A stretch of 64,000 nucleotides of DNA from Chiua virens. Taxonomy: Eukaryota; Basidiomycota; Agaricomycetes; Boletales; Boletaceae. Made by a program: the position numbers and the translations under genes. This document shows positions 3,882 through 21,970 of this stretch, in pieces; position 1 is the stretch's first letter; every line of letters begins with the position of its first letter. The notes beneath the pieces were generated by a model. The model worked only from the letters and a program-made list of their open reading frames with translations. It was not told where the DNA came from and did no database searches. Where the stretch lies: positions 186,001-250,000 of the forward strand of contig JAHNUO010000029.1 in assembly GCA_019787685.1 (NCBI GenBank). Reading direction: 5' to 3'.

Positions 3882-4311
3882 TGAAACAACCTAGAACAAT
3901 ACTAGACTGTTAAAGTGTAGTGGTTGAGATGAGGGGGTTCAGTCCAGTGAAGAGGCGAAAACTCCAAGAGAACTTTGTTAGAGCTCTCTGGCTTCAATTC
4001 ATGGGGTTTATATACTACATGGATGTCGGAGTTCTAATCTGAGTATGAACTATGTAGATAAGCATAATGTATCCTATTGGATGATAAGGTGTGAATTTAT
4101 ATGAGTCATAGATAAGAGCATAGCCTTGCACTGCCGATGATGAGTCAGTGATAAGGGAAATGAATAGATAAGAACATGTGTTGATGGATGCTGTGTTATT
4201 GTGGCAGCCAATCGGATATGATCCTTTGGACAGCCTTGACATGAGGCATATATGTTTTAGAATAGATCGAATGTTGGAGTAATGAAGTGAGGAAAAGTTG
4301 GTATCGTAACA
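3882..4311 (-). repeat. 3' LTR of the outer gypsy element
   Basis: This is a 430-bp LTR in minus orientation, starting TGTTACGATACC (at 4311) and ending GGTTGTTTCA (at 3882), with canonical TG...CA ends. It contains the family TATA box (TATATAAA) and the AACAAAGTTCT self-primer sequence on the minus strand. It lacks the 15-bp duplication near the left end that is present in the inner element's LTRs. Confidence 0.93.
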
Positions 4312-4324
4312 CTATCCCCCTTCT
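4312..4324 (-). promoter_or_regulatory. Polypurine tract of the outer element
   Basis: AGAAGGGGGATAG on the minus strand abuts the 3' LTR. This is where plus-strand DNA synthesis is primed during reverse transcription. The identical tract precedes the inner element's 3' LTR at 12021-12033. Confidence 0.85.
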
Positions 4325-5536
4325 GTTGATCAGACTCCGGATGATCCGTTTCATAATTGAGACGATGGAGACTATCCTCATCTTCGTTTAAAGTTTTGTC
4401 GTCATAGGTTCGGAACATGGAGTTAAATTTGGTTTGTGTGACTTTTAGTTTTCTTGGGGCATCTGGATGTGCTTCGTGGAAATCAGATATGAGATCCGGT
4501 GCATTCTTTAGATTCTTTAATGGTTCCCAAGTTCTTTCGTCATCATCATAACCCTTCCAGTGTATGAGATATTCTAAGCGGCATCCCTTCATTCGGGAAT
4601 CGACAATGTAGTCTGCTTCGAATTCTTCTTCTCGGTCATCTCCAATTACTATAGGCCTTGGTTTGTATACCGGCTGATCGGGGAGATGTGCCTTATAGGG
4701 TTTGACCTGAGAGATATTTACGACTGGGTGTATTCGCATAGTGCGTGGGAGTCGAAGTTTTATAGCATTCGGGCCGTGCATGGATATTATGTCATATGGT
4801 CCAATCCACTTGTCTGTGAATTTGGGGTGTTGCTTTATTTTTAGGTTTGTGGTAGAGAGCCAGACCTTATCGCCAATTGAATAAGAGGGAGGTTCTGATC
4901 TCGATTTATCTGCAACGTTTTTCATATGTTCCGCGGCTTTATCTATATTAGACTTGGTTTGTTCTAGAACCTCGGAAAAATCCGTAATGTAGTTCTGAGC
5001 AGTCAGGTTTTTCATAGATTGTGGCATAATTCCCATTCTGGGGACATAAGAGCGTGTGATTTCGAATGGTGAGAATTTAGTGGCAGTGTGTTTTTTGCTG
5101 TTGTATGAGAATTGTGCGAGAGGGAGCCAATCGGCCCATGTGTTATCTTTCTCTGCACAAAACATGCGAAGGTATTGCTGCACTTCTCTGTTCATTCGTT
5201 CTGATTGCCCGTCTGTTTGTGAATGATGTGCGGTGCTTAATTTGGGTGTTATTTTTAACCCTGAGCATATATCTTTCATAAGTTGGGATGCGAATTGTGG
5301 TCCTCGATCTGATACGATAGTTTTAGGGAGGCCATGATGTTTCCATATGTGTGAGAGATATAGTTTAGCGAGATCCATAGATGTACACGTTTTGTGACAG
5401 GGGATGAATTCGACTTCTTTAGAGAAGCGATCCACAACTGTGAGAATGGAATCATAGGAGTGTGAAAGTGGGAGATCTGTAATGAAATCTGCTGAGATAT
5501 CTTCCCATGGTAATGACGGTGTTTCTAAGGGTTGTA

Positions 5537-5541
5537 GGAGT
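5537..5541. repeat. Target-site duplication GGAGT, left side of inner element
   Basis: GGAGT in the outer pol directly precedes the inner 5' LTR. The same five bases follow the inner 3' LTR at 12480-12484, after which the outer pol sequence resumes. Confidence 0.93.
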
Positions 5542-5987
5542 TGTTACGATACCAACTTTTCCTCTACCAACTTTTCCTCACTTCATAACTCCAACATTCG
5601 ATCTATTCTAAAAATACATGCCTCATGTCAAAGCTGTCCAAAGGATCATATCCGATTGGCTGCCACAATAACACAGCACCCATCAACACATGTTCTTATC
5701 TTTTCATTTCCCTTATCACTGACTCATCATCGGCAGTGCAAGGCTATGCTCTTATCTATGACTCATACCGATTCACACCTTATCATCCAATAGGATGCAT
5801 TATGCTTATCTACGTAGTTCATACTCAGATTAGAACTCCGATATCCATGTAGTATATAAACCCCATGAATGACAGCCAGAGAGCTCTAACAAAGTTCTCT
5901 TGGAGTTTTCGCCTCTTCACTGGACTGAACCCCCTCTTCACTACACCACTACAACTTTAACAGTCTAGGTTGTTCTAGGTTGTTTCA
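5542..5987 (+). repeat. 5' LTR of inner gypsy element
   Basis: It is 446 bp long, TGTTACG...TGTTTCA. Compared with the outer LTR it contains a 15-bp tandem duplication near the left end (two copies of an ACCAACTTTTCCTCT-like unit at about 5550-5580). It carries the promoter that drives the genomic RNA. Confidence 0.95.
5853..5898 (+). promoter_or_regulatory. LTR core promoter (TATA box) and self-primer sequence at the expected RNA 5' end
   Basis: TATATAAA at 5853-5860 is followed 35 bp from its first base by AACAAAGTTCT (5888-5898). That sequence is the exact reverse complement of the 11 bases at 5990-6000, right after the LTR. In the Tf1/sushi group the first ~11 nt of the RNA fold back to prime minus-strand DNA synthesis, so the transcription start is predicted at or very near 5888. 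Confidence 0.75.
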
Positions 5988-5989
5988 TT

Positions 5990-6000
5990 AGAACTTTGTT
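5990..6000 (+). promoter_or_regulatory. Self-priming primer-binding site
   Basis: AGAACTTTGTT begins three bases (two unpaired, TT) after the LTR end at 5987. It lacks the TGG start of a tRNA-complementary PBS. It is perfectly complementary over 11 nt to LTR positions 5888-5898 downstream of the TATA box. This is the arrangement of Tf1-type self-primed retrotransposons. Confidence 0.75.
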
Positions 6001-6082
6001 GTTTATCTTCGCCGTTGATCGACTACTGTCAAGTCACAACCTCGTCGTAGCCCCTACTACAAAATAACACAGCCGGGCCCAA

Positions 6083-6222
6083 GTAAGTCCCAAGCTTGAA
6101 AAGTAGTTGGAACATTTGCTACCAATAAGCCGAATTGCAAAAGACTCAAGGTCTAGCAATCGCAGAAGCAGATAGCGCACCCCTTGACCAGAAAGGAGAT
6201 CTTAACTGACCTGCCCAATCAG
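6083..6222 (+). other. Predicted 5' leader intron whose removal creates the ORF-A start codon
   Basis: A perfect donor GTAAGT at 6083 is preceded by A at 6082. A branch-like CTTAACTGAC lies at 6201-6210 and the acceptor AG at 6221-6222, followed by TG. Joining 6082 to 6223 makes A|TG, an AUG in frame with ORF-A. The outer copy has the same design (17165/17029, intron 135 bp) with conserved donor, branch and A|TG junction but diverged intron sequence. Splicing itself is inferred. Confidence 0.72.
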
Positions 6223-6785
6223 TGTCGAACCTACCCCTCTCAGCCATCGCAGCAGCCGCTGAGGCTTACCCTGACCTCGTCGACGAACCCTACGTCTTCG
6301 ACGCAGCTTATCTCGCAGAAGTCGTCGCTCTCGAGGACCTTGATCCCGAAGACCGTACCGACACCGAAATTTTCCACGCCTTATTAGGCCACTTCATAGG
6401 GGAAACCACTCCCTTATCAGACTACTCTAGTGAACGAGAGTCAACCCGGTCCGACAGCCCGGAACTTAGGTATCCAACTGAGGAAGTTGAGGTCAAGCGC
6501 GAATACTTTCCCGCTCCCATTCCCGAAAGAGAACCGTCACCTTTCCCACCAGCTCCTTTGAGAGAACCATCGGAGGAAAGTTTAGGAGATCCAAACGATT
6601 GGCTCCCACCCAGAGAAATTGAAAGGAGAAACGCCAGGACAGACCTTGAAAGAAAAAGGATCCTGAGACGATACAAGGCTAACAGAGTACCTACTCGCAT
6701 ACGCCCCTATTCCCAGTACGACAACTTCGAATTCCCCTACATTAGACCTAGGAATACTCTTAGGATCCCCTCCCGATTCCTCTAA
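6223..6785 (+). CDS. Accessory protein ORF-A of the inner gypsy element (187 aa, start codon made by splicing)
   Basis: This is an unrecognised protein in front of gag. The genomic frame opens after a stop at 6207 and contains no ATG. Joining A6082 to TG at 6223 gives a start reading MSNLPLSAIAAAAEAYPD. The N-terminal third is acidic (motif DLVDEPYVFDAAYLAEVV). The middle is proline- and glutamate-rich (YFPAPIPEREPSPFPPAP). The C-terminal third is strongly basic (REIERRNARTDLERKRILRR, about residues 130-155). No signal peptide, membrane segment or enzyme motif was seen. The outer copy's protein is roughly 88% identical by eye and has the same length, which argues that it is translated and selected. 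The acid/proline/basic layout would suit a nucleic-acid or capsid adaptor, but that is a guess. Confidence 0.7.
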
Positions 6786-6800
6786 ATAAGAAAATCTTTT

Positions 6801-7046
6801 ATGTCTTGGGAACTCGTCGCAATCGCACTCATTATCTCCTGTACCCTTACCACATACTTCTTTGGATATATTGCATTCTACCTTACAAACAAGGTACAAG
6901 AATCTCAAAGACCAATTTACGTTTCCATCAAACGCCGAGACTACCCTTTCGCAGTCACATTCGGTCTTTTCTCACCCTACGAAGAATACGGTACAGCAAC
7001 CGCTAACGCTTGGGGAGCACCAGAACCAGCAACTGACGCCTGGTAA
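6801..7046 (+). CDS. Accessory protein ORF-B, small single-pass membrane protein (81 aa)
   Basis: The start at 6801 is the first ATG anywhere downstream of the predicted RNA start (5888). One hydrophobic helix covers about residues 5-29 (ending FYLTNKV), followed by a basic stop-transfer-like patch (QRPIYVSIKRRDYPF). A polar tail ends in APEPATDAW. In the outer copy the last ~50 residues are identical apart from one V/I change while the membrane helix varies, so the tail seems to be the constrained part. The start context is weak (T at -3), which would let ribosomes pass on to gag. It lies 15 nt after ORF-A and 15 nt before gag. No homology is recognised; an env-like, viroporin-like or membrane-anchoring role is speculation. 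Confidence 0.75.
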   Translation: MSWELVAIALIISCTLTTYFFGYIAFYLTNKVQESQRPIYVSIKRRDYPFAVTFGLFSPYEEYGTATANAWGAPEPATDAW

Positions 7047-7061
7047 ATTGCCGAAAACAAA

Positions 7062-8246
7062 ATGGACTACCACACCGCTCTCGGAGTTCTGAACGACACC
7101 TCTCGCACAAATGGAGATCGACTACAAGCCGCATTTACCCTCGTTGCAGAGCAAGCTACCCTTATCGCCGCCCTAGAAGGGCAACTCAATGCCTTACCAG
7201 TCATACCCCCACAGGCAGCCGCCTCATCTTCAAAAGTCGAAATCTTCGCAGACCCAGGGTCATATGACGGAGAAATGGCCAAATTCGAAGAATGGTGGGC
7301 CAAAATGAAAGGATGGCTCGAAGTAAACAACCTCGCCATTCCCAAGGGCTCATACAGGGCCGTACAAGCCGTACTCTCACGGTTAAAAGGAAAGAAGGCG
7401 GCGCAATTCGCAGAAACGCGCTTAGCTAAAGGCTCCGCTCTCACGTGGGCAACATTAGTACAGGACATCGAAGGGATGTTCCGACAAAACAACAAGGTTG
7501 ATTGGGCTAGATCCCAATTAGAAAATCTCAAACAAGGAACGATGAGAGTAGAGGACTATATCGTCCAATGGGAGGCTTTGTGGCTACAAGCACACATCGA
7601 TCCTACCCATGCGATAAGACTCCTTGAGGCAAACACAGCCCACTCCATCATATACCAAATCTTCCGTGACGGACACAGGGTAGACCCCTTCCACGCCATG
7701 TACACGGACCCAAAACACGCAGAATATGAACCTGATCGTGATCACGTGGTCATCACATACCTTTCTTGGATCCGAACAGCGGGAAATGCCATGGAAGCAC
7801 TCAATTACGTGCGACCAGACCGCTACAAAAAGTATAAGGATCCCAATGCTATGGACATTGGCCAAGCCACTTACGCCGAAAGAGACGAAGATGGCTGGTT
7901 CACAGGAAAAGAAGTCAGAGCATTTGGACAAAAGAAGTCCAATAACAACAAATGCTACAATTGCGGCGGTGCAGGTCACAGAACCAATGAATGCACCAAA
8001 CCTAAAAACCAGTGCAGTGAATGCAAGTGGTACGGCGGATCCCATAAGACGCAATGTTCGCGCAAAGTCTGCTCCACAAACAAGGAAGAGAAGAAGACCA
8101 TATCTTCTACTTCCACCACTTCCCCATCTGTACCGGCTAAAGACCCCTTTGCCGCCATCCGAGGGATGTCCCCTGAGGAAGTTCAAGCATACTACTTCGA
8201 CATGTATGAAAACAAGAACGGAAAGGGAAAAGGCAAGGCGAACTGA
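7062..8246 (+). CDS. gag: Gag polyprotein of inner gypsy element (394 aa)
   Basis: This is the structural protein that forms the virus-like particle. The retrotransposon capsid region covers about residues 65-215 (FEEWWAKMKGWL, then MFRQNNKVDWARSQLENLKQG). A CCHC zinc knuckle (CYNCGGAGHRTNEC) lies near residue 305 and a second, degenerate CX2CX6HX3C knuckle (CSECKWYGGSHKTQC) about 25 residues later. The tail is basic (GKGKGKAN). The start at 7062 has a strong context (A at -3, G at +4) and is only the second ATG after the predicted RNA start. The stop at 8244-8246 overlaps the open pol frame by 37 nt. The outer copy's Gag is only about 60-65% identical by eye, although pol is about 97% identical. 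Confidence 0.93.
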   Translation: MDYHTALGVLNDTSRTNGDRLQAAFTLVAEQATLIAALEGQLNALPVIPPQAAASSSKVEIFADPGSYDGEMAKFEEWWAKMKGWLEVNNLAIPKGSYRAVQAVLSRLKGKKAAQFAETRLAKGSALTWATLVQDIEGMFRQNNKVDWARSQLENLKQGTMRVEDYIVQWEALWLQAHIDPTHAIRLLEANTAHSIIYQIFRDGHRVDPFHAMYTDPKHAEYEPDRDHVVITYLSWIRTAGNAMEALNYVRPDRYKKYKDPNAMDIGQATYAERDEDGWFTGKEVRAFGQKKSNNNKCYNCGGAGHRTNECTKPKNQCSECKWYGGSHKTQCSRKVCSTNKEEKKTISSTSTTSPSVPAKDPFAAIRGMSPEEVQAYYFDMYENKNGKGKGKAN

Positions 8247-11200
8247 GTAAACTGGGATCTCACGTTCGCACCACCCTTCCTAAAGAATATGAAAACTCTG
8301 TCTCTTTAAAGTTTGATTTTACCTATTCAGAAATTCCTCCCTGGCAAGAGGATAAACTACCTAAATCACCAAAAACAACAGAAAACGAAAGCGTTGACAG
8401 CGACTCTGCGGAGCGCGGCGGACACGATAGTTCCGTGCTTAATTCTGTCCCAAAACAAATCCCCGATGGGTCTTTCATTAGATCTACATCGGTAGAAAAA
8501 GAAATTATATTACCAATTTTGGTATCCCCAGTAAACCAAATTGGTTATGTTGGAGCAAAAGCGCTTCTTGATAGTGGAGCTAATGCGATCTTCATACACG
8601 AAGACTACGTCGCTAAACATAAATTACCCACACATGCGCTACCTCATGCCATACAAGTCTTCAATGTCGACGGAACCAAGAATCAAGCGGGTTCTATTAC
8701 TCACGCCACACAAATCCTGATTGATTACAAAGGACACAGGGAAATAGTGGATGCCGAAATTACCAACCTAGGAAAGAACGACCTTATCCTCGGATATACA
8801 TGGTTAAAGCACCACAATCCCCATATAGATTGGTCCACAGGATCGGTTGTAATGCGAAGATGCCCCGAATCATGTCATTCTCTAGAAGAAGACGACTTCT
8901 TGGATTCCATTATCGCAGAAGAACTAAAATATGCAAACTCTATCGTGGAATCTCGAATTTTTACCGCAAACATGGAAACTCCACCTCCTCCTCCTAAGGA
9001 ACGCACTCTTGAAGAGATGGTCCCACGAGAGTATATGAAATATGCTAAAGTATTTGGAAAAACGGAATCCGAAAGAATACCATTACGCAAACCATGGGAT
9101 CACAGCATTGACCTAAAAGAGTCTTTCGTTCCCAAGAAGGGTCGCTTAATACCCCTCTCTGTCACAGAACAAGAAGAGGTCTCCGCATTCATCGATGACC
9201 AATTAAAGAAAGGTTACATCAGACCCTCTAAATCCAAACAGACATCTCCGGTCTTCTTCGTCCCTAAGAAAGATGGAAAGAAGCGTATGGTCCAGGATTA
9301 CCGATACCTAAATGAACATACAAGCAAAAATAATTACCCCTTACCGCTTATATCGCAGCTTGTGGATAAATTAAAAGACGCTAAGCTTTTTACGAAAATG
9401 GATCTCCGATGGGGATACAATAACGTACGCATCAAAGAAGGCGACGAATGGAAGGCAGCATTTGTCTGTCACCGCGGGTCTTTCGAACCCATCGTCATGT
9501 ACTTCGGATTATGTAACTCACCAGCAACGTTTCAAACTATGATAAACGAAATCTTTGCCGACATGAATGGCGTCGTTGTCGTTTACATCGATGACCTTAT
9601 GATCTTTACAGACACCGATGACTATGAAACTCATGACAAAATCGTACTCGAAGTGCTTAAACGCCTCGAAGAGAACGATCTATACGTAAAACCAGAAAAA
9701 TGCTTCTTCCGCGTAAAAGAAGTGGACTTCCTCGGAATGATCGTGGGAACTGATGGAATTAAAATGGATAATGAAAAAACCAAAGCAGTCGCTGAATGGC
9801 CTACTCCCACATCAGTCAAACACATCAGAAGTTTCCTCGGACTTGCCAACTTCTATCGCAGATTCATTAAAGATTATGGAAAAATAGCACGACCTCTACA
9901 TGATCTTACTAAAAAGGATCAAAAATTTGAATGGACCTTCGCTTGTGACGAAGCATTCACTATGCTTAAAAAGGCTTTTACGACAGCCCCTATCCTTGCC
10001 TATCCGGATCAGAATGCCAAATATCGCTTAGAATGCGATTCATCGGATTTCGCTACAGGAGCAGTTCTATCTTTAGAAAAAGAAGGACTTTTGCACCCAG
10101 TCGCTTACAATAGCCACTCTATGACACCAGAAGAACGAAATTACCCAATAGCCGACAAAGAAATGCTCTCAGTTATCCGTTCTCTAGAACTATGGCGCCA
10201 CTATCTCGAGGGTGCAAAACATGAATTTGAAATATGGAATGACCACCAGAACCTTACGTGGTTCATGACACGCCAAGATCTTAATCGAAGACAAGCGAGA
10301 TGGGCGCAATACCTCTCACGCTTTAACTTCACTTGGCACCACAAGGCTGGAGTCACTATGGGAAAAGCAGATGCACTAAGCAGAAGAGAAGATCACATGA
10401 TCGGAATCGAAGATGATAACAAAGGAATCCTTCTCATGGATCCATCTAAGATCAGATCAGCCGTCACTCTCCTATACAATGGTGATCAATTCTTATCTGA
10501 CGTACAACATGAAACTATGAAACTACCACCTAATGCCATGAAACATTTACTTTCCATTGGATATAAAGTCGAGGACGCCTTCCTTAGAAAGGGGGATAGA
10601 ATCTTCATTCCGGATACATTACGCACCAAATCTATAACCATGTTTCATGACACACCGGAAGCAGGACACCCCGGTTACGACAAAACTTTAGAACTTCTAT
10701 CTCGAACCTATATTTGGCCTCGAATGAACGAAGAAGTCAAAAATTATGTCTCACACTGTGAAAGATGCGCACGATTCAAGGGTTCTAATCAGAAAACAGC
10801 AGGACTCCTGCAACCCTTAGAAACACCGTCATTACCATGGGAAGATATCTCAGCAGATTTCATCACAGATCTCCCACTTTCACACTCCTATGATTCCATT
10901 CTCACAGTTGTGGATCGCTTCTCTAAAGAAGTCGAATTTATCCCATGCCACAAAACGTGTACATCTATGGATCTCGCTAAACTATCTCTCTCACACATAT
11001 GGAAACATCATGGCCTCCCTAAAACCATCATATCAGACAGAGGACCACAATTCGCTTCCCAACTTATGAAAGATATATGCTCAGGGTTAAAAATAACACC
11101 CAAATTAAGCACCGCTCATCATCCACAGACGGACGGACAATCGGAACGAATGAACCGAGAAGTGCAACAATATCTTCGCATGTTCTGTGCTGAAAAAGAT

Positions 11201-12103
11201 AACACATGGGTTGATTGGCTCCCTCTCGCACAATTTTCCTATAACAGCAAGAAACACACTGCCACTAAATTCTCACCATTCAAAATCACACGCTCCTACG
11301 TCCCTAGAATGGGAATTATGCCACATACTATGAAAAACCCGGCTGCTCAGAATTTCATTACGGACTTTTCCGAAGTACTAGAGCAAACCAAATCTAATAT
11401 AGATAAAGCCGCAGAACATATGAAAAACGTTGCAGACAAATCGAGATCAGAACCCCCTTCCTATTCAGTTGGCGACAAGGTCTGGCTCTCCACTACAAAC
11501 CTAAAAATAAAGCAACACCCCAAATTCACCGAAAAGTGGATTGGACCCTATAACATAATCTCTATGCACGGCCCGAATGCTTTAAAGCTCCGACTCCCAC
11601 GCACTATGCGCATACACCCAGTTGTAAACATCTCTCAGGTCAAACCTTATAAGGAACATCTACCAGAACAGCCGGTTTACAAACCGCAACCTGTCGTAAT
11701 CGGAGATGACCGAGAAGAAGAATTCGAAGCGGATTACATCGTTGATTCCCGAATGAAGGGACGACGCTTAGAATATCTCATACACTGGAAAGGTTATGAT
11801 GATGACGAAAGAACTTGGGAACCACTAAAGAATCTAAAGAATGCACCGGATCTCATATCTGATTTCCACAAAGCACATCCAGATGCCCCAAGAAAATTAA
11901 AAGTCACACAAACCAAATTTAACTCTATGTTCCGAACTTATGACGATAAAACTTCACACGAAGATGAGGATAGTCTCCATCGTCTCAATTATGAAACAGA
12001 TCATTCGGAGCATGATCATCAGAAGGGGGATAGTGTTACGATACCAACTTTTCCTCTACCAACTTTTCCTCACTTCATAACTCCAACATTCGATCTATTC
12101 TAA
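8210..12103 (+). CDS. pol: Pol polyprotein: protease, reverse transcriptase, RNase H, integrase, chromodomain
   Basis: The frame is open from 8210. The first internal ATG is at 8435, but entry by -1 frameshift from gag at 8225-8231 is more likely. In order: aspartic protease (LLDSGANAIFI near 8564-8600); reverse transcriptase with the YIDD catalytic motif at 9583; RNase H (ECDSSDFATGAVL near 10030); integrase zinc finger (HX4H...CX2C near 10650-10780); integrase core with ADFITDLP (~10850), ISDRGPQFAS (~11030) and HHPQTDGQSERMN (~11115); and a chromodomain (LIHWKGYDDDERTWEP near 11778-11825). All catalytic residues are present and there are no internal stops. The last ~23 codons lie inside the 3' LTR, so the PPT is also coding. 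The gene supports copying of element RNA into DNA and its integration, probably guided to methylated histone by the chromodomain. Confidence 0.95.
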   Translation, partial: KQERKGKRQGELSKLGSHVRTTLPKEYENSVSLKFDFTYSEIPPWQEDKLPKSPKTTENESVDSDSAERGGHDSSVLNSVPKQIPDGSFIRSTSVEKEIILPILVSPVNQIGYVGAKALLDSGANAIFIHEDYVAKHKLPTHALPHAIQVFNVDGTKNQAGSITHATQILIDYKGHREIVDAEITNLGKNDLILGYTWLKHHNPHIDWSTGSVVMRRCPESCHSLEEDDFLDSIIAEELKYANSIVESRIFTANMETPPPPPKERTLEEMVPREYMKYAKVFGKTESERIPLRKPWDHSIDLKESFVPKKGRLIPLSVTEQEEVSAFIDDQLKKGYIRPSKSKQTSPVFFVPKKDGKKRMVQDYRYLNEHTSKNNYPLPLISQLVDKLKDAKLFTKMDLRWGYNNVRIKEGDEWKAAFVCHRGSFEPIVMYFGLCNSPATFQTMINEIFADMNGVVVVYIDDLMIFTDTDDYETHDKIVLEVLKRLEENDLYVKPEKCFFRVKEVDFLGMIVGTDGIKMDNEKTKAVAEWPTPTSVKHIRSFLGLANFYRRFIKDYGKIARPLHDLTKKDQKFEWTFACDEAFTMLKKAFTTAPILAYPDQNAKYRLECDSSDFATGAVLSLEKEGLLHPVAYNSHSMTPEERNYPIADKEMLSVIRSLELWRHYLEGAKHEFEIWNDHQNLTWFMTRQDLNRRQARWAQYLSRFNFTWHHKAGVTMGKADALSRREDHMIGIEDDNKGILLMDPSKIRSAVTLLYNGDQFLSDVQHETMKLPPNAMKHLLSIGYKVEDAFLRKGDRIFIPDTLRTKSITMFHDTPEAGHPGYDKTLELLSRTYIWPRMNEEVKNYVSHCERCARFKGSNQKTAGLLQPLETPSLPWEDISADFITDLPLSHSYDSILTVVDRFSKEVEFIPCHKTCTSMDLAKLSLSHIWKHHGLPKTIISDRGPQFASQLMKDICSGLKITPKLSTAHHPQTDGQSERMNREVQQYLRMFCAEKDNTWVDWLPLAQFSYNSKKHTATKFSPFKITRSYVPRMGIMPHTMKNPAAQNFITDFSEVLEQTKSNIDKAAEHMKNVADKSRSEPPSYSVGDKVWLSTTNLKIKQHPKFTEKWIGPYNIISMHGPNALKLRLPRTMRIHPVVNISQVKPYKEHLPEQPVYKPQPVVIGDDREEEFEADYIVDSRMKGRRLEYLIHWKGYDDDERTWEPLKNLKNAPDLISDFHKAHPDAPRKLKVTQTKFNSMFRTYDDKTSHEDEDSLHRLNYETDHSEHDHQKGDSVTIPTFPLPTFPHFITPTFDLF
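8225..8231 (+). promoter_or_regulatory. Candidate -1 ribosomal frameshift slippery site between gag and pol
   Basis: GGGAAAA is phased as G GGA AAA in the gag frame, which fits the X XXY YYZ rule. It lies 12 nt upstream of the gag stop. The pol frame is -1 relative to gag and is open from 8210, so slipping here gives a Gag-Pol fusion. The same heptamer in the same phase is present in the outer copy at 15054-15060. Confidence 0.65.
12021..12033 (+). promoter_or_regulatory. Polypurine tract of the inner element
   Basis: AGAAGGGGGATAG directly abuts the 3' LTR at 12034. It is the primer for plus-strand synthesis and is embedded in the C-terminal coding part of pol. Confidence 0.85.
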
Positions 12104-12479
12104 AAATACATGCCTCATGTCAAAGCTGTCCAAAGGATCATATCCGATTGGCTGCCACAATAACACAGCACCCATCAACACATGTTCTTATCTTTTCATT
12201 TCCCTTATCACTGACTCATCATCGGCAGTGCATGGCTATGCTCTTATCTATGACTCATACCGATTCACACCTTATCATCCAATAGGATGCATTATGCTTA
12301 TCTACGTAGTTCATACTCAGATTAGAACTCCGATATCCATGTAGTATATAAACCCCATGAATGACAGCCAGAGAGCTCTAACAAAGTTCTCTTGGAGTTT
12401 TCGCCTCTTCACTGGACTGAACCCCCTCTTCACTACACCACTACAACTTTAACAGTATAGGTTGTTCTAGGTTGTTTCA
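12034..12479 (+). repeat. 3' LTR of inner gypsy element
   Basis: It is 446 bp and matches the 5' LTR except for two substitutions. It contains the last 70 nt of the pol reading frame and provides the polyadenylation region for the genomic RNA. Confidence 0.95.
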
Positions 12480-12484
12480 GGAGT
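12480..12484. repeat. Target-site duplication GGAGT, right side of inner element
   Basis: GGAGT follows the TGTTTCA end of the inner 3' LTR and matches 5537-5541. The outer element's pol continues from here. Confidence 0.93.
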
Positions 12485-15060
12485 CCTGCTGTTTTCTGAT
12501 TAGAACCCTTGAATCGAGTGCATCTTTCACAGTGTGAGACATAATTTTTGACTTCTTCGTTCATACGAGGCCAAATGTAGGTTCGTGAGAGAAGTTCTAA
12601 GGTTTTGTCATAACCGGGATGTCCGGCTTCCGGTGTGTCATGAAACATAGTAATGGATTTGGTGCATAAAGCATCCGGAATGAAGATTCTATCCCCCTTT
12701 CTAAGGAAGGCGTCCTCGACTTTATATCCGATAGAAAGTAGATGTTTCATGGCATTTGGTGATAGTTTCATAGTTTCATGTTGTACGTCTGATAAGAATT
12801 GATCACCATTATAGAGGAGAGTGACGGCTGATCTGATTCTGGATGGATCCATGAGAAGGATTCCTTTGTTATCATCTTCAATTCCGATCATGTGGTCCTC
12901 CCTCCTGCTTAAAGCGTCAGCTTTTCCCATAGTGACTCCAGCCTTGTGGTGCCAAGTGAAGTTAAAGCGTGAGAGATATTGTGCCCATCTTGCTTGTCTT
13001 CGATTAAGATCTTGGCGTGTCATAAACCACGTAAGGTTCTGGTGGTCATTCCATATTTCAAATTCATGTTTTGCACCCTCAAGATAGTGGTGCCATAGTT
13101 CAAGAGATCGGATAACCGAGAGCATTTCTTTATCGGCTATTGGGTAGTTCCGTTCTTCTGGTGTCATAGAGTGGCTATTATAAGCGACAGGGTGCCAAAG
13201 TCCTTCTTTTTCTAAAGATAGAACTGCTCCCGTTGCGAAATCCGATGAATCGCATTCTAAGCGATATTTGGCATTCTGATCTGGATAAGCAAGAATAGGG
13301 GCTGTCGTAAATGCCTTTTTCAGCATAGTGAATGCTTCGTCACAAGTGAAGGTCCATTCGAATTTCTGATCCTTTTTAGTAAGGTCATGTAAAGGTCGTG
13401 CTATTTTTCCATAATCTTTAATGAATCTTTGATAGAAGTTGGCAAGTCCGAGGAAACTTCTGATGTGTTTGACTGATGTGGGAGTTGGCCATTCGGCTAC
13501 TGCTTTGGTCTTTTCGTTATCCATTTTAATCCCATCAGTTCCCACGATCATTCCGAGGAAGTCCACTTCTTTTACGCGAAAGTAGCATTTTTCTGGTTTT
13601 ACGTATAGATCGTTATCTTGGAGGCGTTTAAGCACTTCGAGTACGATTTTGTCATGAGTTTCATAATCGTCGGTGTTAGTGAATATCATAAGGTCATCGA
13701 TGTATACAACAGCAACGCCGTCCATATCGGCAAAGATTTCGTTCATCATGGTTTGAAACGTTGCTGGTGAGTTACATAATCCAAAGTACATGACGATGGG
13801 TTCGAAAGACCCACGGTGGCAGACAAATGCTGCTTTCCATTCGTCGCCTTCTTTGATGCGTACGTTATTGTATCCCCAACGGAGATCCATTTTTGTGAAT
13901 AGCTTAGCGTCTTTAAGTTTGTCCACAAGCTGCGATATAAGCGGCAAGGGATAGTTATTTTTGCTTGTATGTTCGTTTAGGTATCGGTAATCCTGAACCA
14001 TACGCTTCTTTCCATCTTTCTTGGGAACAAAGAAGACCAGAGATGTCTGTTCCGATTTAGAGGGTCTGATGTAACCTTTCTTTAATTGGTCATCAATGAA
14101 TGCGGAAACCTCCTCTTGTTCTGTTACAGAGAGGGGTATTAAACGACCCTTTTTAGGAATAAAAGACTCTTTTAGGTCAATGCTGTGATCCCATGGTTTG
14201 CGTAATGGAATTCTTTCGGATTCTGTTTTCCCAAATACTTTAGCATATTTCATATATTCTCGTGGGACCATCTCTTCAAGAGTGCGTTCCTTAGGAGGAG
14301 AAGGTGGAGTTTCCATGTTTGCGGTAAAAATACGAGATTCCGCGATAGAGTTTGCATATTTAAGTTCTTCTGCAATAATGGAATCCAAGAAATCGTCTTC
14401 CTCTTGAGAATGACATGATTCCGGGCATCTCCGCATTACAACAGATCCTGTAGACCAGTCTATATGGGGGTTGTGGTGCTTTAACCATGTATATCCGAGG
14501 ATAAGGTCATTCTTTCCAAGGTTGGTAATTTCGGCATCCACTATTTCCCTGTGTCCTTTGTAATCAATCAGGAGTTGTGTGGCGTGAGTAATAGAACCTG
14601 CTTGATTTTTGGTTCCGTCGACATTGAAGACTTGTATGGCATGAGGTAGTGCATGTGTGGGAAGTTTGTGCTTTGCGACATAATCTTCATGTATGAAGAT
14701 CGCATTAGCTCCACTATCTAAAAGCACTTTTGCTCCAACATAACCAATTTGGTTTACTGGGGATACCAAAATTGGTAATACTATTTCTTTTTCTACCGAT
14801 GTAGATCTAATGAAAGACCCATCGGGGATTTGTTTTGTGACAGAATTAAGCACGGAACTATCATGTCCGCCGCGCTCTGCAGAGACGCTGTCAACGCTTT
14901 CGTTTTCTGTTGTTTTTGATGGTTTAGGTAGTTTATCCTCTTGCCAGGGAGGTATTTCGGAGTATTTGAAATCAAACTTTAAAGAGACAGTGTTTTCATA
15001 TTCTTTAGGGAGGGTGCGAACGTGAGATCCCAGTTTACTCAGTTCGCTTTGCCTTTTCCC
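12480..15060 (-). pseudogene. Outer element pol, 5' part (protease, RT, RNase H, integrase zinc finger), severed by the nested insertion
   Basis: The minus-strand frame is open from the gag overlap near 15060 down to the insertion at 12480, after which it runs into inner LTR sequence and stops. It contains the protease (LLDSGANAIF), RT (VVYIDDLMIF near 13690-13720), RNase H (ECDSSDFATGAVL) and the integrase zinc finger ending CERCTRFKGSNQKTAGL. I count about 26 amino-acid differences from the inner Pol over about 795 residues (about 97% identity). The catalytic residues are unchanged. The continuation (integrase core and chromodomain) lies at 5541-4257. Confidence 0.92.
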
Positions 15061-16205
15061 TTCTTTTCGGTTTCGTATTTGTCATCGTAATACGCTTGTA
15101 CTTCCTCAGGGTTCATTCCTCGGATGGCCGCGAAGGGGTCCTTTTCCAGGACTGAAGAAGTTGAAGCTTTAGGGGCTTCTTTTTGTTGTGTGGTTGATCT
15201 TGCTTTTCGAGATTTCCCACATGTGGCTTTGTGGTTGCCGGCGTAGTATTTGCAATCGGGGCATTGCACTTTGGGTTTGGGACAATCCCGAGGGAAATGT
15301 CCTTGTTCTCTGCAGTTGAAGCATTTGTTGGGCTTCTTTTGCCCTGCTGCCCTGACTTGTTTGCCGGTGAACCAGCCATCTTCGTCTTGTTCATATGTTG
15401 CGGCCCCTATGTCCATTGCGTTGGGGTCTTTTGATTTCCAATTTCTTTCTCCTCGGACATAGTTGATTGACTCGAAGGAGTTACCTGCTGTGCGGATTGC
15501 AGCGAGGTATTTGGTTACTGCCTCATTCCTATCTTTTATGTAAGATGGATGGGCGGAGTTTGTGTAGATTGGATCATTCGGGTCTTGCCGTTGTCCATCT
15601 TTGAATATTTGGAATATGATGCTTCTGGCCATGTTGGTTTCCAGAAGCCTTATGGCATGTGTGGGATCAATCTGGGCTTGTTGCCACAGATTTTCCCAGC
15701 GGACTATGAAGTCTTCGACCCTCATGTTACCCTGTTTCAGGTTTTCCAATTGGGTTCGAGCCCAGTCTACTTTATTGTTTTGTCGGAACATTCCTTCTAT
15801 GTCCACGACCAATTGTGCCCATGTGAGTTTAGAACCTTGAGCTAGTCTTGTTTCAGCGAATTGGGAGCTTTTTGCTCCTTTTAGACGTGAGAGTACCGCG
15901 AGTACCGCATGGTGTGAATCAGGAGCGATGCTTCTCTGATTGATATCGAGCCATCCTTTGATTTTGGCCCACCACTCTTCGAATTTGCTTTGATCTCCAT
16001 CATAGATTCCGGGATCAGCGAATATCTCCACTTTAGAAGAACCTGTAGCAGGCGTGGTAGACATATTGTTTAGTTTGTTTTCTAGTGTGGCGACCATGTT
16101 GGTGAGTTCTTGGACCAGCCAAGCCGATGCCGTAAGACGATCCCCATCGTTCAACGATTGGTTGTTTAGATCTTTGAGGGCGGTGGCGTAGGTGTATCCT
16201 GACAT
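15039..16205 (-). CDS. gag: Gag polyprotein of outer gypsy element (388 aa)
   Basis: The ATG is at 16205, two bases after the ORF-B stop (TAA AT ATG). The capsid region has FEEWWAKIKGWLD and MFRQNNKVDWARTQLENLKQG. The CCHC knuckle is CFNCREQGHFPRDC and a second knuckle-like motif is CPDCKYYAGNHKATC. The tail is KKGKGKAN. The frame is intact, and the GGGAAAA frameshift heptamer is kept at 15054-15060. N-terminal and C-terminal halves differ strongly from the inner Gag, unlike the nearly identical Pol, which suggests a mosaic origin. It could still be made if transcribed, but the LTR promoter of this copy is deleted. Confidence 0.9.
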   Translation of the reverse strand: MSGYTYATALKDLNNQSLNDGDRLTASAWLVQELTNMVATLENKLNNMSTTPATGSSKVEIFADPGIYDGDQSKFEEWWAKIKGWLDINQRSIAPDSHHAVLAVLSRLKGAKSSQFAETRLAQGSKLTWAQLVVDIEGMFRQNNKVDWARTQLENLKQGNMRVEDFIVRWENLWQQAQIDPTHAIRLLETNMARSIIFQIFKDGQRQDPNDPIYTNSAHPSYIKDRNEAVTKYLAAIRTAGNSFESINYVRGERNWKSKDPNAMDIGAATYEQDEDGWFTGKQVRAAGQKKPNKCFNCREQGHFPRDCPKPKVQCPDCKYYAGNHKATCGKSRKARSTTQQKEAPKASTSSVLEKDPFAAIRGMNPEEVQAYYDDKYETEKKGKGKAN

Positions 16206-16207
16206 AT

Positions 16208-16453
16208 TTACCAAGCGTCAGTTGCAGGTTCTGGTGCTCCCCAAGCGTTAGCGGTGGCTGTTCCGTATTCTTCGTAGGGTGAGAAAAGACCGAAGGTGAC
16301 TGCGAAAGGATAGTCTCGTCGTTTGATAGAGATGTAGATGGGTCTTTGCGATTCTTGTACCTTGTTCGTAAGGTAGAATGCAATGTATGAAAAGAGAAAG
16401 GTGATTAAAGTGCAAGCGGCAATGAAAATGATTGCAACGAGTTCCCAAGACAT
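16208..16453 (-). CDS. Accessory protein ORF-B of outer element (81 aa, one membrane helix)
   Basis: It has the same length and layout as ORF-B of the inner copy: a hydrophobic N-terminal helix (variant residues), then the nearly invariant tail from NKVQESQRP to PATDAW. The start codon at 16453 has T at -3 (weak context). It is 13 nt downstream of the ORF-A stop and its own stop is 2 nt before the gag ATG. This tight packing suggests reinitiation or leaky scanning. No database family is recognised. Confidence 0.72.
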   Translation of the reverse strand: MSWELVAIIFIAACTLITFLFSYIAFYLTNKVQESQRPIYISIKRRDYPFAVTFGLFSPYEEYGTATANAWGAPEPATDAW

Positions 16454-16466
16454 ATACAGATTCTAT

Positions 16467-17029
16467 TTAGAGATATCTGGAAGGAATCCTAAGAGTGTTT
16501 CTAGGACGTAAGGTGGGGAATTCGAAAATATCGTATTGTGAATATGGACGGATGCGGGAAGGGACTAAGTTCGCTTTGTAGCGCCTGAGTACTCTTTTCC
16601 TTTCTAGCTCAGTCCTAGCGTTTCTCCTTTCTATTTCTCTGGGTGGGAGCCAATCGTTAGGGTCTCCTAGACTTTCCTCAGAGGGCTCTCGTAATGGAGC
16701 AGGTGGAAATGGTGACGGTTCTCTTTCGGGAATGGGTGCGGGAAAGTATTCGCGCTTAACCTCTGGTTCCTCAGTTGGATACCGTAATTCCGGGCTGTCG
16801 GACCGGGTTGACTCTCTGGTGGTTGAGTAGTCTGGGAGTGATGAATCGTCTCCTAAAAAGTGCCCTAGCAAGGCGTGGAATATCTCTGTGTCGGTGCGGT
16901 CTTCGGGATCAAGGTCCTCTAGAGCAACAACTTCTGCAAGGTAGGCGGCGTCGAAGACATAGGGTTCGTCAACGAGATCAGGGAATGCTTCCTGAGCGGC
17001 GGCGATGGCAGAGAGGGGTAATCCGGTCA
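16467..17029 (-). CDS. Accessory protein ORF-A of outer element (187 aa, start codon made by splicing)
   Basis: This is the counterpart of inner ORF-A, about 88% identical by eye, with the same acidic start, proline-rich middle and basic end. The genomic frame again lacks any ATG. It opens after a TAA, and only the predicted splice between A at 17165 and TG at 17029-17028 gives an AUG (reading MTGLPLSAIAAAQEA). One out-of-frame ATG exists inside the ORF (near 16960) that the inner copy lacks. Confidence 0.7.
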
Positions 17030-17164
17030 CTATGTTTTGTGATCTCAGTTAAGAGGACAATTAGCAACAAAAAGTGCGCTATCAGCTTCTGCGCTATATG
17101 GACCTTTGGTCTCGAGCAGCTTGTGAAGTAGATAAAATCTTCCGTTCAAAGGGTTGCGACTTAC
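17030..17164 (-). other. Predicted leader intron of outer element creating the ORF-A start codon
   Basis: The donor GTAAGT (minus strand 17164-17159) is preceded by A at 17165. A branch-like CTTAACTGAG is followed by the acceptor AG (17031-17030), directly followed by TG. It is 135 bp versus 140 bp in the inner copy. Donor, branch and split A|TG are conserved while most of the intron body is not. Confidence 0.72.
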
Positions 17165-17199
17165 TCTGTGCGCTTGTTCCTCTTGTTTAGTGGTAAGAC

Positions 17200-17479
17200 T
17201 TCTAATCTGAGTATGAACTATGTAGATAAGCATAATGTATCCTATTGGATGATAAGGTGTGAATTTATATGAGTCATAGATAAGAGCATAGCCTTGCACT
17301 GCCGATGATGAGTCAGTGATAAGGGAAATGAATAGATAAGAACATGTGTTGATGGATGCTGTGTTATTGTGGCAGCCAATCGGATATGATCCTTTGGACA
17401 GCCTTGACATGAGGCGTATATGTTTTAGAATAGATCGAATGTTGGAGTAATGAAGTGAGGAAAAGTTGGTATCGTAACA
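17200..17479 (-). repeat. Truncated 5' LTR of outer element
   Basis: Only the first ~280 bp of the LTR (from TGTTACGATACC at 17479 to the TTCTAATCTGAG region at 17200) remain. The rest of the LTR, with TATA box and transcription start, and the adjacent primer-binding site are missing. The sequence jumps directly into leader sequence. Confidence 0.85.
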
Positions 17480-17484
17480 GTGAG
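17480..17484. repeat. Target-site duplication GTGAG, right side of outer element
   Basis: It matches 3877-3881 and shows that the outer insertion is bounded here despite the internal 5' LTR deletion. Confidence 0.9.
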
Positions 17485-20386
17485 AGTCATGGTGACGGTC
17501 TGTAGGATTAGCCAGATTCATTTGGGACATGCTTGGAGTACTAGAATAAATTGTCATATTGTTTTTCTGTCTGAACAAATGTCAGAGCTACACCAGGGTG
17601 AATCTAATCTACATCCTCAACTGGATCTTGCTCATCTTCACCATCATCCTGGTTCCCTTCTGTATACAAGAGACACTAAGCCTGGGTTTTTGAATGCAAA
17701 AGAAAACCTGCTCCATCTCAACTGTCTGTGGGATCATAGCGACAATAGACACAATGTCTTGCACAAGTATGATAGAGACTTCATTTGTGATTTGCATTCT
17801 TGCAAATGTTTGTCGGGACTGTGTCAAAAGAGCATCATCTGGTGGAGTAAAGGTGCAGATGAGCGCAACATTGGCAAACTCAAAAGCCCTGTCTTCCTGT
17901 TCCACAGCAATCCTTGTGAAGTACAAGACTTCACCAATTCGAAATCCATTGTTCTTTTTGAACTGTCATTGCATGTTAGATAGATTATTGGTAGTGATAG
18001 TAAACTAAATGACTTACCTTTAACATCCTTGAGATTCATAATTTCTCTGAGGAGATGGTGTTTTCTCTCCAAGCTCTACATGCTATTTGACCATTTGGTA
18101 GTTGCAGTCATGCCCAGCGCCGGATCTTGGGGAGTGGGACATCATGGCCTAAGAAGTCTTGAATCGCTTGAGCAGTGCCATGGCTGGGTTTCACAGGCAC
18201 CTTGTCCTGCTTGCAGAGGAGCACATACTCATTGCCAAGGTCCTCTGCGCCACTGGGAAGGTGATGGGATAGGGTACCAAGTGTTGGTAATGCGGCGAGT
18301 AGTGCATTTACATGTGCTCTTCGTACACCTTCCCTACAGAAATTGGCCAGATAATTTGAGGGTTCACGAATCTCTTGCTTAAGGTTCCCGATCATACGTT
18401 CAATTGTCTACTGTGCTGTACAAACACTTGGTCCTTTTTGGAAAGTTTCTGGGGCCAAATGAATAACCTGATGAACACATGGGCGAATGAAATGTAGGCG
18501 ATCATTGCAACATTGATAATACAGCTCTTCAAATTCAAGTTCCCACAAGGCAAGAAGGGCACATGCCTTGAGCATTTCTTCATGCGTGATTTGGTGTTGA
18601 CAGATGATTTGAAAGCCACGGACAAGTTTGCACAAGTTCAACCAGTACCTTTCAGGGAGTATTCCATATAATAAACCTGGTGCAAGTCTGAACATATAGA
18701 GATAGAATTCCCAGGTTTCATAGTCCAAGTTGATTTTAGCAGCAATGTTCCATGGCTTCGTGTCGAATGAGCCAGGAATGTACAATCCAGCTTCTTCAAC
18801 AGCACATCCATGAGCTTTCCAAATCTCTTCATCACGCAGAACTGCCTAGCCCCAGGTGTCAACATTATCTGTGCATGAGCAAGTAATAGTACCACACCAT
18901 AGAGATATGAGTAGGTGGCTAAGATTGGCTGCCAGATGCATGATGTTGGTTGTCAGGCACAAAGGGACACCAAGGGAATGTTTCGGGTCTAACCCCAGGA
19001 TAAGGGGTATTTTCGTTATCCCCGTCTCGGTTCATCTAAGTTCAAATTGCCATTGATTTGGTGAGGACATGAGCTAGATCAGATTTGCCGTGTATTCATG
19101 ACTAGCAGTAGGTGGGATATGAAAGGGTAAGATGTCAGGGTGATTGCTGTCTCACAATGGATTGTGAGGGCACAAAAGTGCTGGATAATAGTGAGTGTGT
19201 CCTTGCGACGACCCCTTATCCCACAGTATATTCAGCAGCCATTTTTACCACAGTGGCCCACCAAACCATCCCAATGTGTCAATCCAGGCCTGTCAGCAGT
19301 CATAAAGAGAAGATAAATTTGGGATCTGAAAACCATATCACAAGACAAGTCCCAGACCTTGAGCCCTTCCTTTTGTAGTGCAGCCAAGTGATGCATGCCA
19401 ACAGTGAGAAAGGAATCGAGGTTTTGAGGTTTGTTTGGTCCTGGAATGAAGCCACCAGGAAGTACACGAGTTTTGCAGTAACATTTATCAGGGGCAAGAT
19501 TGGGTATGATCTATATATATATCCAACAATCTGAGTCTTTATCTTCATACAACTGTGCTCTGTCAATGGACACCATGAGTACAATGTTGTTTTCCTTGAT
19601 ATCACCAGCTAGAGAAGCACCTATGGAATCCTATCTAGTCAATATACCAGGAATAATTGCAGAGACATACCTAAAGAATCCCATCCAGCAACAATGTCAT
19701 CGATAACAGATATTTTCTTGTGTATTTCATATTCATCAAGCATGGCCTGTGTCCGCTCATGGAAGTAGCGCATGTCAAACGCGCTGTCAGGATCATGGTA
19801 GAGCGCTTGCAACTATGGTCCAAGAGGTAGTGTAATGAATGTCTTTACCGCATCGCCGTTTACTTTCTTTCAAGGGGCTTCACACATGGGGCATTCATCC
19901 AGATTAGAAAATGGCCCTGTGAATCCAACGCACAAGTTGATGCACATATCGTGCTCAATAGGTTCAATCCCTGTGTGCACCCCAATGAGGTTCTCGACTT
20001 CTTGAAAGCTAAGTAAATCAGCTGTTCCAGGCGCTTTAGTGAAATGGTGCTTTGCTGCTTGAATAACACCAGAGTAGGCATTTTGAGAGGCATGCTCAAG
20101 AGCAAGGTATGCTTCTATGCTAAACATGATGCCGGGGTTGTTGAGCTGAATTGGTATCTCAGGAGGGTTGTGAAGTCGCTCAAGCATTGTGGTTGTGAAT
20201 TTGGCAATAGGATCATCAAAAGATGCATTCTGGACACCAATAACAAAGTCGAGGCTTTGTCATAGCTTTGGGAATGTAGTTAGATGTGCGAGCTGCTCCA
20301 GATCAGCAAGTTGTGGTCTTCTCCTATCATATACAATGTGTCAGGGACGAGGTCCTTGTTTAGGTAAGGGTGAATGGTCAGGTGGG

Positions 20387-21539
20387 GGTGAATCTCGTCC
20401 GGAAGGGTCTGGAGGTGGATCGGGTGAAGGAAAGCGCTGATCTGGTGAGGGTGAACAGTCGGGTGGGGGTGAATCTCATCCAGAAGGGTCTGGAGGTGGA
20501 CTGAGTGAAGGAAAGCGCTGATCTAGTGAGGGTAAATGGTCGGGTGGGGGTGAATCTCGTCCAGAAGGGTCTGGAGGTGGATCGGGTGAAGGAAAGCGCT
20601 GATCTGGTGAGGGTGAACAGTCGGGTGGGGGTGAATCTCATCCAGAAGGGTCTGGAGGTGGACTGAGTGAAGGAAAGCGCTGATCTAGTGAGGGTAAATG
20701 GTCGGGTGGGGGTGAATCTCGTCCAGAAGGGTCTGGAGGTGGATCGGGTGAAGGAAAGCGCTGATCTGGTGAGGGTGAACAGTCGGGTGGGGGTGAATCT
20801 CATCCAGAAGGGTCTGGAGGTGGACTGAGTGAAGGAAAGCGCTGATCTAGTGAGGGTAAATGGTCGGGTGGGGGTGAATCTCGTCCAGAAGGGTCTGGAG
20901 GTGGATCGGGTGAAGGAAAGCGCTGATCTGGTGAGGGTGAACAGTCGGGTGGGGGTGAATCTCATCCAGAAGGGTCTGGAGGTGGACTGAGTGAAGGAAA
21001 GCGCTGATCTAGTGAGGGTAAATGGTCGGGTGGGGGTGAATCTCGTCCAGAAGGGTCTGGAGGTGGATCGGGTGAAGGAAAGCGCTGATCTGGTGAGGGT
21101 GAACAGTCGGGTGGGGGTGAATCTCATCCAGAAGGGTCTGGAGGTGGACTGAGTGAAGGAAAGCGCTGATCTAGTGAGGGTAAATGGTCGGGTGGGGGTG
21201 AATCTCGTCCAGAAGGGTCTGGAGGTGGATCGGGTGAAGGAAAGCGCTGATCTGGTGAGGGTGAACAGTCGGGTGGGGGTGAATCTCATCCAGAAGGGTC
21301 TGGAGGTGGACTGGGTGAAGGAAAGCGCTGATCTGGTGAGGGTAAATGGTCGGGTGGGGGTGAATCTCGTCCGGAAGGGTCTGGAGGTGGATCGGGTAAA
21401 GGAAAGCGCTGATCTGGTGAGGGTGAACGGTCAGGTGGGGGTGAATCTCATCCAGAAGGGTCTGGAGGTGGATTGGGTGAAGGAAAGTGCAGATCTGGAG
21501 AGGGAGAATGGTCAGGTGGGGGTGAATCTCGTCCAGAAG
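20387..21539 (-). repeat. 81-bp tandem array with a 162-bp (A-B) higher-order unit inside the Tnp2 coding region
   Basis: About 14.2 units of 81 bp, starting GGTGAATCTC at 20387, 20468, 20549 and so on. Units alternate between type A (CTCGTCCAG, GGATCGGGTG, GTGAACAGTC) and type B (CTCATCCAG, GGACTGAGTG, GTAAATGGTC). The array is cut by a solo LTR at 21540 and resumes at 21971 for about 54 bp. On the minus strand A units encode a Pro/Asp/Ser-rich repeat (PPPDPSGRDSPPPDH), but B units have TGA in place of the CGA Arg codon. Confidence 0.9.
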
Positions 21540-21970
21540 TGAAACAACCTAGAACAAAGCTAGACTGTAAAGTGTAGTGGATGAAGTGAGAGGGGGTTCA
21601 GTCCAGCAAAGAGGCGAAAACTCCAAGAGAACTTTGTTAGAGCTCTCTGGCTGAAATTCATGGGGTTTATATACTACATGGATATCGGAGTTCTAATCTG
21701 AGTATGAACTACGTAGATAAGCATAATGTATCCTATTGGATGATAAGGTGTGAGTCGATATGAGTCATAGATAAGAGTATAGCCTTGCACTGCTATTAAT
21801 GAGTCAGTGATAAGGGAAATGAAATGATAAGGGGCATGAGGTGATGGATGCTGTGTTATTGTGGCAGCCAATCGGATATGATCCTTTGGACAGCCTTGAC
21901 ATGAGGCGTTTATCTTTAGAATAGATTGAACGTTGGAGTAATGAAGTGAGGAAAAGTTGGTATCGTAACA
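21540..21970 (-). mobile_element. Solo LTR of the same gypsy family
   Basis: It is 431 bp, minus orientation, TGTTACGATACC at 21970 to GGTTGTTTCA at 21540, flanked by the TSD AGAAG (21535-21539 and 21971-21975). It retains the TATA box and self-primer sequence and lacks the 15-bp duplication. It inserted into the 81-bp array and was reduced to one LTR by recombination. Confidence 0.93.

Follow-up and report, generated by a model that had tools for sequence, protein, structure and literature searches.

Several described systems resemble parts of the locus analysed here, and we compare them as they appear in excerpts of the cited sources. In rice tungro bacilliform virus (RTBV), no AUG occurs inside ORFs I and II over about 900 nt, and leaky scanning takes ribosomes past weak starts to stronger ones, with AUU as the start of ORF I and ribosome shunting in use as well; the RTBV P4 protein comes from a spliced RNA in which a leader uORF with an unbroken AUG is joined to a gene at the far end (PMC5902531). 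Drosophila Ty3/gypsy elements of the MDG1 group (for example 412) carry two accessory ORFs between the LTR and gag, the second encoding a small membrane protein; the RNAs of the group show no splicing, the first ORF is expressed from a short polyadenylated RNA, and sORF2 has an ectodomain of ~30 residues, with an N-terminal MGxxxS/T in four of six (PMC11952523). Gag-only spliced RNAs are described for BARE1 and copia, and spliced env for errantiviruses (PMC3735527, PMC4276936). In a survey of 25 fungal genomes, chromoviruses mostly had one or two ORFs, and an additional ORF of unknown function appears in a figure legend (PMC2864245).

The element described here, which we call element 1, has in common with RTBV and the badnaviruses (plant pararetroviruses), as far as those excerpts go, AUG-poor consecutive ORFs, a gradient of start strength and a leader whose predicted splicing serves an accessory protein; unlike RTBV, it would split the AUG itself, and its accessory gene lies before gag. 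It has the same two-accessory-ORF layout as the MDG1 group, a likeness of described gene order. BARE1, copia and the errantiviruses likewise allot spliced and unspliced RNAs to different proteins, but their splicing truncates pol or reaches env, and the excerpts describe no start codon built by splicing. With the surveyed fungal chromoviruses, as excerpted, element 1 shares a gag-pol with a chromodomain and a fungal host. The open-access literature that we searched yielded no retroelement start codon built by splicing.

Element 1 and the older copy that contains it

Both copies lie in the window, by which we mean the whole 64,000-nucleotide stretch of DNA analysed. Their features are as follows.

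5542-12479, plus strand: element 1, a complete Ty3/gypsy chromovirus with paired LTRs, GGAGT repeats and pol domains
5542..5987, plus strand: 5′ LTR of element 1, 446 bp, TG...CA, with TATATAAA at 5853
5888..6082, plus strand: predicted exon 1, between the putative RNA 5′ end and the donor; it closes on the A that would open the split AUG, and it has no ATG
5990..6000, plus strand: self-primer binding site AGAACTTTGTT, exact reverse complement of 5888-5898
6083..6222, plus strand: predicted intron, 140 nt, GTAAGT...CAG; 123 of 131 leaders keep both the branch-like block and ends that resemble splice sites
6142..6152, plus strand: conserved intron hairpin GACTCAAGGTC; 113 of 123 introns match GACYNAAGGTC exactly
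6201..6209, plus strand: branch-like block CTTAACTGA, present in both window copies
6223..6785, plus strand: predicted second exon of ORF-A, with the TG of the start codon, 186 codons and a stop (6783-6785); dN/dS 0.05-0.18
6801..7046, plus strand: ORF-B, 81-residue predicted membrane protein, at the first ATG of the unspliced RNA
7062..8246, plus strand: gag with zinc knuckle (Pfam Retrotrans_gag and zf-CCHC)
8210..12103, plus strand: pol open frame, -1 to gag, with protease, RT, RNase H, integrase, SH3_Tf2-1 and chromodomain (Pfam)
12034..12479, plus strand: 3′ LTR of element 1, 446 bp, pairing with the 5′ LTR
16467..17029, minus strand: ORF-A of element 2, TG to stop; protein 89% identical to that of element 1
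17030..17164, minus strand: predicted intron of element 2, donor 17164, acceptor 17030

The two LTRs of element 1 differ at 2 positions and a GGAGT target-site duplication stands on each side, which marks it as a young, complete insertion. Pfam, run on pol in three pieces, gave the order protease-RT-RNase H-integrase along 8210-12100, with both the zinc-binding and the core domain of integrase (the core slightly below cut-off in the piece scanned) and, in the last piece, a chromodomain after integrase (PF00385, E 1.6e-16). By its domain content, element 1 is therefore a chromovirus-type Ty3/gypsy element with two predicted accessory genes before gag. The gag and pol frames overlap at 8210-8246; since pol lies in the -1 frame, a ribosomal frameshift between them is likely.

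In Tf1 self-priming, the RNA 5′ end is complementary to the primer-binding site. In element 1, AACAAAGTTCT at 5888 is complementary to the primer-binding site in 11 of 11 bases, and TATATAAA begins 35 nt before it; we infer from this that the RNA would begin at ~5888.

Element 1 is nested in the integrase region of an older, minus-strand element, element 2, which consists of an integrase frame (5543-4257), the remaining pol (15081-12433) and then gag and ORF-A to ~17030; the nest lies within window positions 3900-17480. The two LTR pieces of element 2, 4029-4311 and 17197-17479, share 99% identity. The earlier note on this DNA had set the two copies side by side, but element 2 is no intact control, as its 5′ LTR has neither an RNA start nor a primer-binding site.

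Elsewhere in the window, an open frame at 639-1895 with integrase zinc-binding and SH3_Tf2-1 domains is the end of another Ty3/gypsy element, an array of 81-bp tandem repeats occupies 20282-21634 with the minus strand open for 350 codons, and 21573-21962 holds one more LTR-like piece, a diverged member of the same family. A multicopper oxidase gene was also found; together with a chromovirus, it would suit a basidiomycete host.

A predicted route past ORF-A to gag

Neither window copy has an in-frame ATG in ORF-A, just as the earlier note had claimed; in element 1 there is no ATG in any frame over 5888-6800, and the ORF-A of element 2 has one ATG, out of frame. The first ATG downstream of 5888 in the unspliced RNA of element 1 is thus that of ORF-B at 6801, 913 nt on. 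The splice-site-like sequences to which that note had pointed are exact in both copies (a slash marks the predicted junction): A(6082)/GTAAGT and a CAG ending at 6222 before TG (6223-6224) in element 1, and CACAGA/GTAAGT and ATAG/TG on the minus strand in element 2, such that joining gives an in-frame A/TG.

We propose that the genomic RNA would carry no start codon for ORF-A, with A ending exon 1 and UG opening exon 2. On the unspliced RNA, ribosomes would scan ~913 nt free of AUGs and reach the weak AUG of ORF-B, from which many would continue to the strong AUG of gag. Removal of the 140-nt intron would create the ORF-A AUG as the first AUG in the RNA; this AUG would be weak as well, and some ribosomes would still get to ORF-B and gag. 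Such a split would allow a gene to stand before gag without an AUG that intercepts gag translation, and would tie the dose of ORF-A to splicing. An intact ORF-A AUG would be present in the genomic RNA, where it would capture gag-bound ribosomes, which suggests that the AUG is split because this protects gag translation. As a whole, the explanation by split AUG, splicing and leaky scanning is in our judgement probable, at about 0.82. The sequences themselves show the sites with their conservation, the selection on ORF-A, the scarcity of ATGs and the gradient of start contexts; splicing itself, the use of leaky scanning and packaging of the unspliced form are the inferred parts.

AUGs are scarce along the predicted scanning path in related copies from the same genome. 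We counted ATGs in 44 of 51 long loci, leaving out those with incomplete leaders or with ORFs that were broken, fused or otherwise unusual: against dinucleotide shuffles, exon 1 had 0 (28 expected) and the intron 1 (71 expected), and with synonymous codons permuted ORF-A had 23 in any frame where 80 were expected, with no internal Met codon in 8,198 ORF-A codons. A second count, confined to 42 of the 51 loci, whose ORF-B has 81 or 89 codons, and excluding from the control any gag stretch with a stop, found 22 out-of-frame ATGs in ORF-A (76 expected) and 9 in ORF-B (58 expected), whereas the control, up to 600 nt of gag, had 309 where 215 were expected; these copies are related and their counts not independent, and the contrast with gag is what matters.

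Start contexts follow the same direction. The joined ORF-A AUG has a weak context, with C at -3 in 98 of 123 copies and G at +4 in none of the 123; that of ORF-B is also weak (T at -3 in 42/42, T or C at +4), and that of gag is strong (purine at -3 in 42/42, G at +4 in 31/42). With its upstream ORFs depleted of AUGs, its upstream starts weak and its last start stronger, the predicted layout fits leaky scanning through ORF-A and ORF-B to gag.

These data also bear on an alternative in which the intron is real and the downstream ORFs are reached by termination and reinitiation, with ORF-A, ORF-B and gag acting as coupled cistrons. The short distances from stop to start are what such coupling would use: the ATG of the 89-residue type of ORF-B comes immediately after the ORF-A stop (0 nt; 21 of 42 copies) and that of the other 21 lies 11-17 nt after it, and the gag ATG lies 2-17 nt beyond the ORF-B stop in the 42 copies. 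Out-of-frame AUGs are, however, irrelevant to translating ribosomes, yet they are depleted in ORF-A and ORF-B and not in gag; moreover, ORF-A would be untranslated on unspliced RNA, from which reinitiation after ORF-A therefore cannot supply gag. We consider this alternative unlikely.

The predicted split start codon across the genome

A search of the same genome with ORF-A gave 152 matches, of which 150 were listed, and we scored 131 leaders, including both window copies. Among the 19 listed matches left out, 17 start at residue 28 or later of ORF-A, and the other two (C9:1140820 and C2:353239) might carry a leader. Our leader patterns required GT and AG, the presence of which consequently proves nothing, and left free the preceding A and the following TG. 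All of this evidence comes from one genome, whose copies are related, and the counts are not independent.

The branch-like block CTT(N)ACTGA was present in 125 of 131 leaders, as CTTAACTGA in 70, CTTTACTGA in 52, CTTCACTGA in 2 and CTTGACTGA in 1. Spliceosomal introns have a usual distance from branch to acceptor; in 123 of the 131 leaders, donor and block occurred together, giving GT...AG ends with a branch-like sequence at this distance. The base preceding the donor GT was A in 122 of these 123, and the sole other leader (L088) has a sequence upstream of its donor that is unlike the others. TG followed the acceptor AG in 122 of 125 leaders by script, or 123 of 125 once the acceptor of L104 was corrected, with TA instead in L083 and L087. 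The block was absent by pattern from six leaders (L076, L085, L094, L146, L150 and L157), of which L085 by eye retains A/GTTAAG and CAG/TG; L064 and L145 have the block, no donor, and upstream sequence unlike that of other copies. A genomic ATG, the finding in related copies that would have told against a start made by splicing, occurred in 0 of 125 classifiable copies, and A/TG was kept in nearly all of them.

Divergent copies gave the same picture. In 20 hand-chosen representatives, eight of them with an ORF-A just 42-51% identical to the query, the introns had a mean identity of 57% and a minimum of 37%; the last exon base was A in 20/20, and the acceptor was followed by T in 20/20 and G in 19/20. 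Exon positions -2 to -8 were variable, as were the first and third bases of codon 2, the middle base of which was C in 20/20; the conservation of the A is judged here against neighbouring exon bases within element copies. At the level of sequence, this confirmed the split A/TG arrangement as real and kept in more than 100 copies. The earlier note was right that the branch-like block is conserved; its view that the rest of the intron is not gave way to the hairpin listed above and a second island, approximately GCAGA..AG.GCACC, which is widely retained.

The distance from block to TG varies among copies (22, 23, 24, 25 or 26 nt), so that no frame crosses from the intron into ORF-A, and coding would begin at the TG. 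ORF-A is under purifying selection: dN/dS was 0.05-0.18 in all 66 pairs of 12 hand-chosen copies, with dS up to 1.6. Such low values indicate a protein that is used and needs a start.

That start could in principle be taken from unspliced RNA at a near-cognate GUG made of the acceptor G and TG, the intron-like signals being incidental or otherwise used. The genomic codon is indeed an in-frame GTG wherever TG is present (123 of 125 copies), which would account for conservation of the TG alone. GUG is an inefficient start in eukaryotes, however, and its use needs neither the A before the donor, kept in 122 of 123 leaders and in every divergent representative amid varying neighbours, nor a donor hexamer and branch-like block that are conserved and fixed in position; we regard it as very unlikely.

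We found no intron-less copy among the 131 scored leaders. A first junction pattern had four matches in the genome at three places, none near a listed ORF-A match (one place, L031, proved on reading to be unrelated sequence), and a second had no match with up to 3 mismatches. A third gave 38 matches with 3 mismatches, mostly the unspliced donor, and at the remaining ones (for example C23, C56 and C62) there was no listed ORF-A match. Keeping spliced RNA out of particles would account for the absence of intron-less copies, which is no proof of splicing. The least probable alternative, in which there is no intron, the conserved blocks of the leader serve replication or packaging and only resemble splice sites, and ORF-A is expressed otherwise, draws on this absence, on the other conserved islands of the region, including the hairpin, and on the expectation that retroelement leaders carry such signals, but it leaves a strongly selected gene startless and makes a coincidence of the in-frame A/TG in nearly every copy.

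Returning to splicing combined with leaky scanning, the spliced RNA would probably also yield some ORF-B and Gag, as ribosomes leak past the weak ORF-A start. The claim that splicing switches ORF-A on is supported in its core, given the conserved junction, the lack of any genomic ATG and the selection on ORF-A, and gives way in its strict on/off form to what we read as a dosage switch.

The intron hairpin, the accessory proteins and their relatives

The hairpin is missing from spliced RNA, which makes it a candidate packaging or export signal. Among 120 matches to a wider pattern, four of them off-target by eye, its inner pair was T-G in 76 and C-G in 40, and it appears in the centroid fold of the element 1 intron; the whole-intron fold was no better than shuffles (z 0.14), and Rfam gave no match over 5500-7200 at E 0.5. 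Several divergent copies carry ATGs in the intron, where depletion is thus less than universal. CG/TG changes are seen there in the divergent copies L075, L077, L079 and L081 (TACGAAGC in L079, TATGAAGC in L075), and some intron ATGs look like CG-to-TG decay of the cytosine methylation or RIP-like kind.

The first part of ORF-A is acidic (pI about 4), whereas residues 127-161 are basic, with 13 Lys/Arg, and helical in a low-confidence structure model (pLDDT 56, pTM 0.19, two sequences). Pfam gave zero matches to it, and no relative outside this genome was detected at E 1e-3 among 187 candidates.

The 42 copies of ORF-B fall equally into two diverged types, one of 81 and one of 89 residues (21 copies each), which are ~26-32% identical to one another; they sit on otherwise similar elements (for example L021, L022, L024, L066 and L072), and the types suggest an exchange of modules. 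The most hydrophobic 19-residue segment begins at residue 6 in type 1 and residue 2 in type 2, and the N-termini in nine aligned copies read MSWEL... or M(L/F)A.... Unlike MDG1 sORF2, as excerpted, or a FAST-like fusogen, ORF-B thus has neither an ectodomain of ~30 residues nor the myristoylation motif MGxxxS/T. Pfam returned just an enolase-like match far below cut-off for type 1 and nothing for type 2, and a search with an alignment as query detected no relatives at E 1e-3 among 173 candidates.

Gag has relatives elsewhere, 15 proteins of 35-44% identity, 13 of them from ENA assemblies. By these searches, the predicted split-start system is known from one genome, with outside relatives for Gag and none detected for ORF-A and ORF-B. 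No relative was confirmed in the viral contigs searched; in bacterial genome contigs, 110 pattern matches held 2 loci, both beginning inside gag and without a leader. Gag-like sequences are filed as Shewanella canadensis and Neobacillus notoginsengisoli (L159 and L160, contig coverage below 1), and a Gag-like nr protein (P0003) is labelled Oceanobacillus profundus; these bacterial-labelled sequences are probably contamination with fungal DNA.

At long odds, element 1 could be a fungal element resembling a complex retrovirus, in which ORF-A, with its acidic first part and an arginine-rich basic helix towards the C-terminus, would be a regulator made from spliced RNA only and would act via the intron hairpin on export, packaging or translation of unspliced RNA, and ORF-B would move particles between compartments or joined hyphae.

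Retroelements keep several genes behind one cap, on an RNA that is both translated and packaged. With its AUG split over an intron, a gene before gag could not draw ribosomes from gag. The arrangement would also give a rule for detecting hidden genes: where a conserved ORF without any AUG stands between the LTR and gag, its start may be split and so escape ORF finders. Finally, a chromovirus in a fungus-like genome would here have a pair of accessory genes ahead of gag, as is known from those Drosophila elements that pass from cell to cell.
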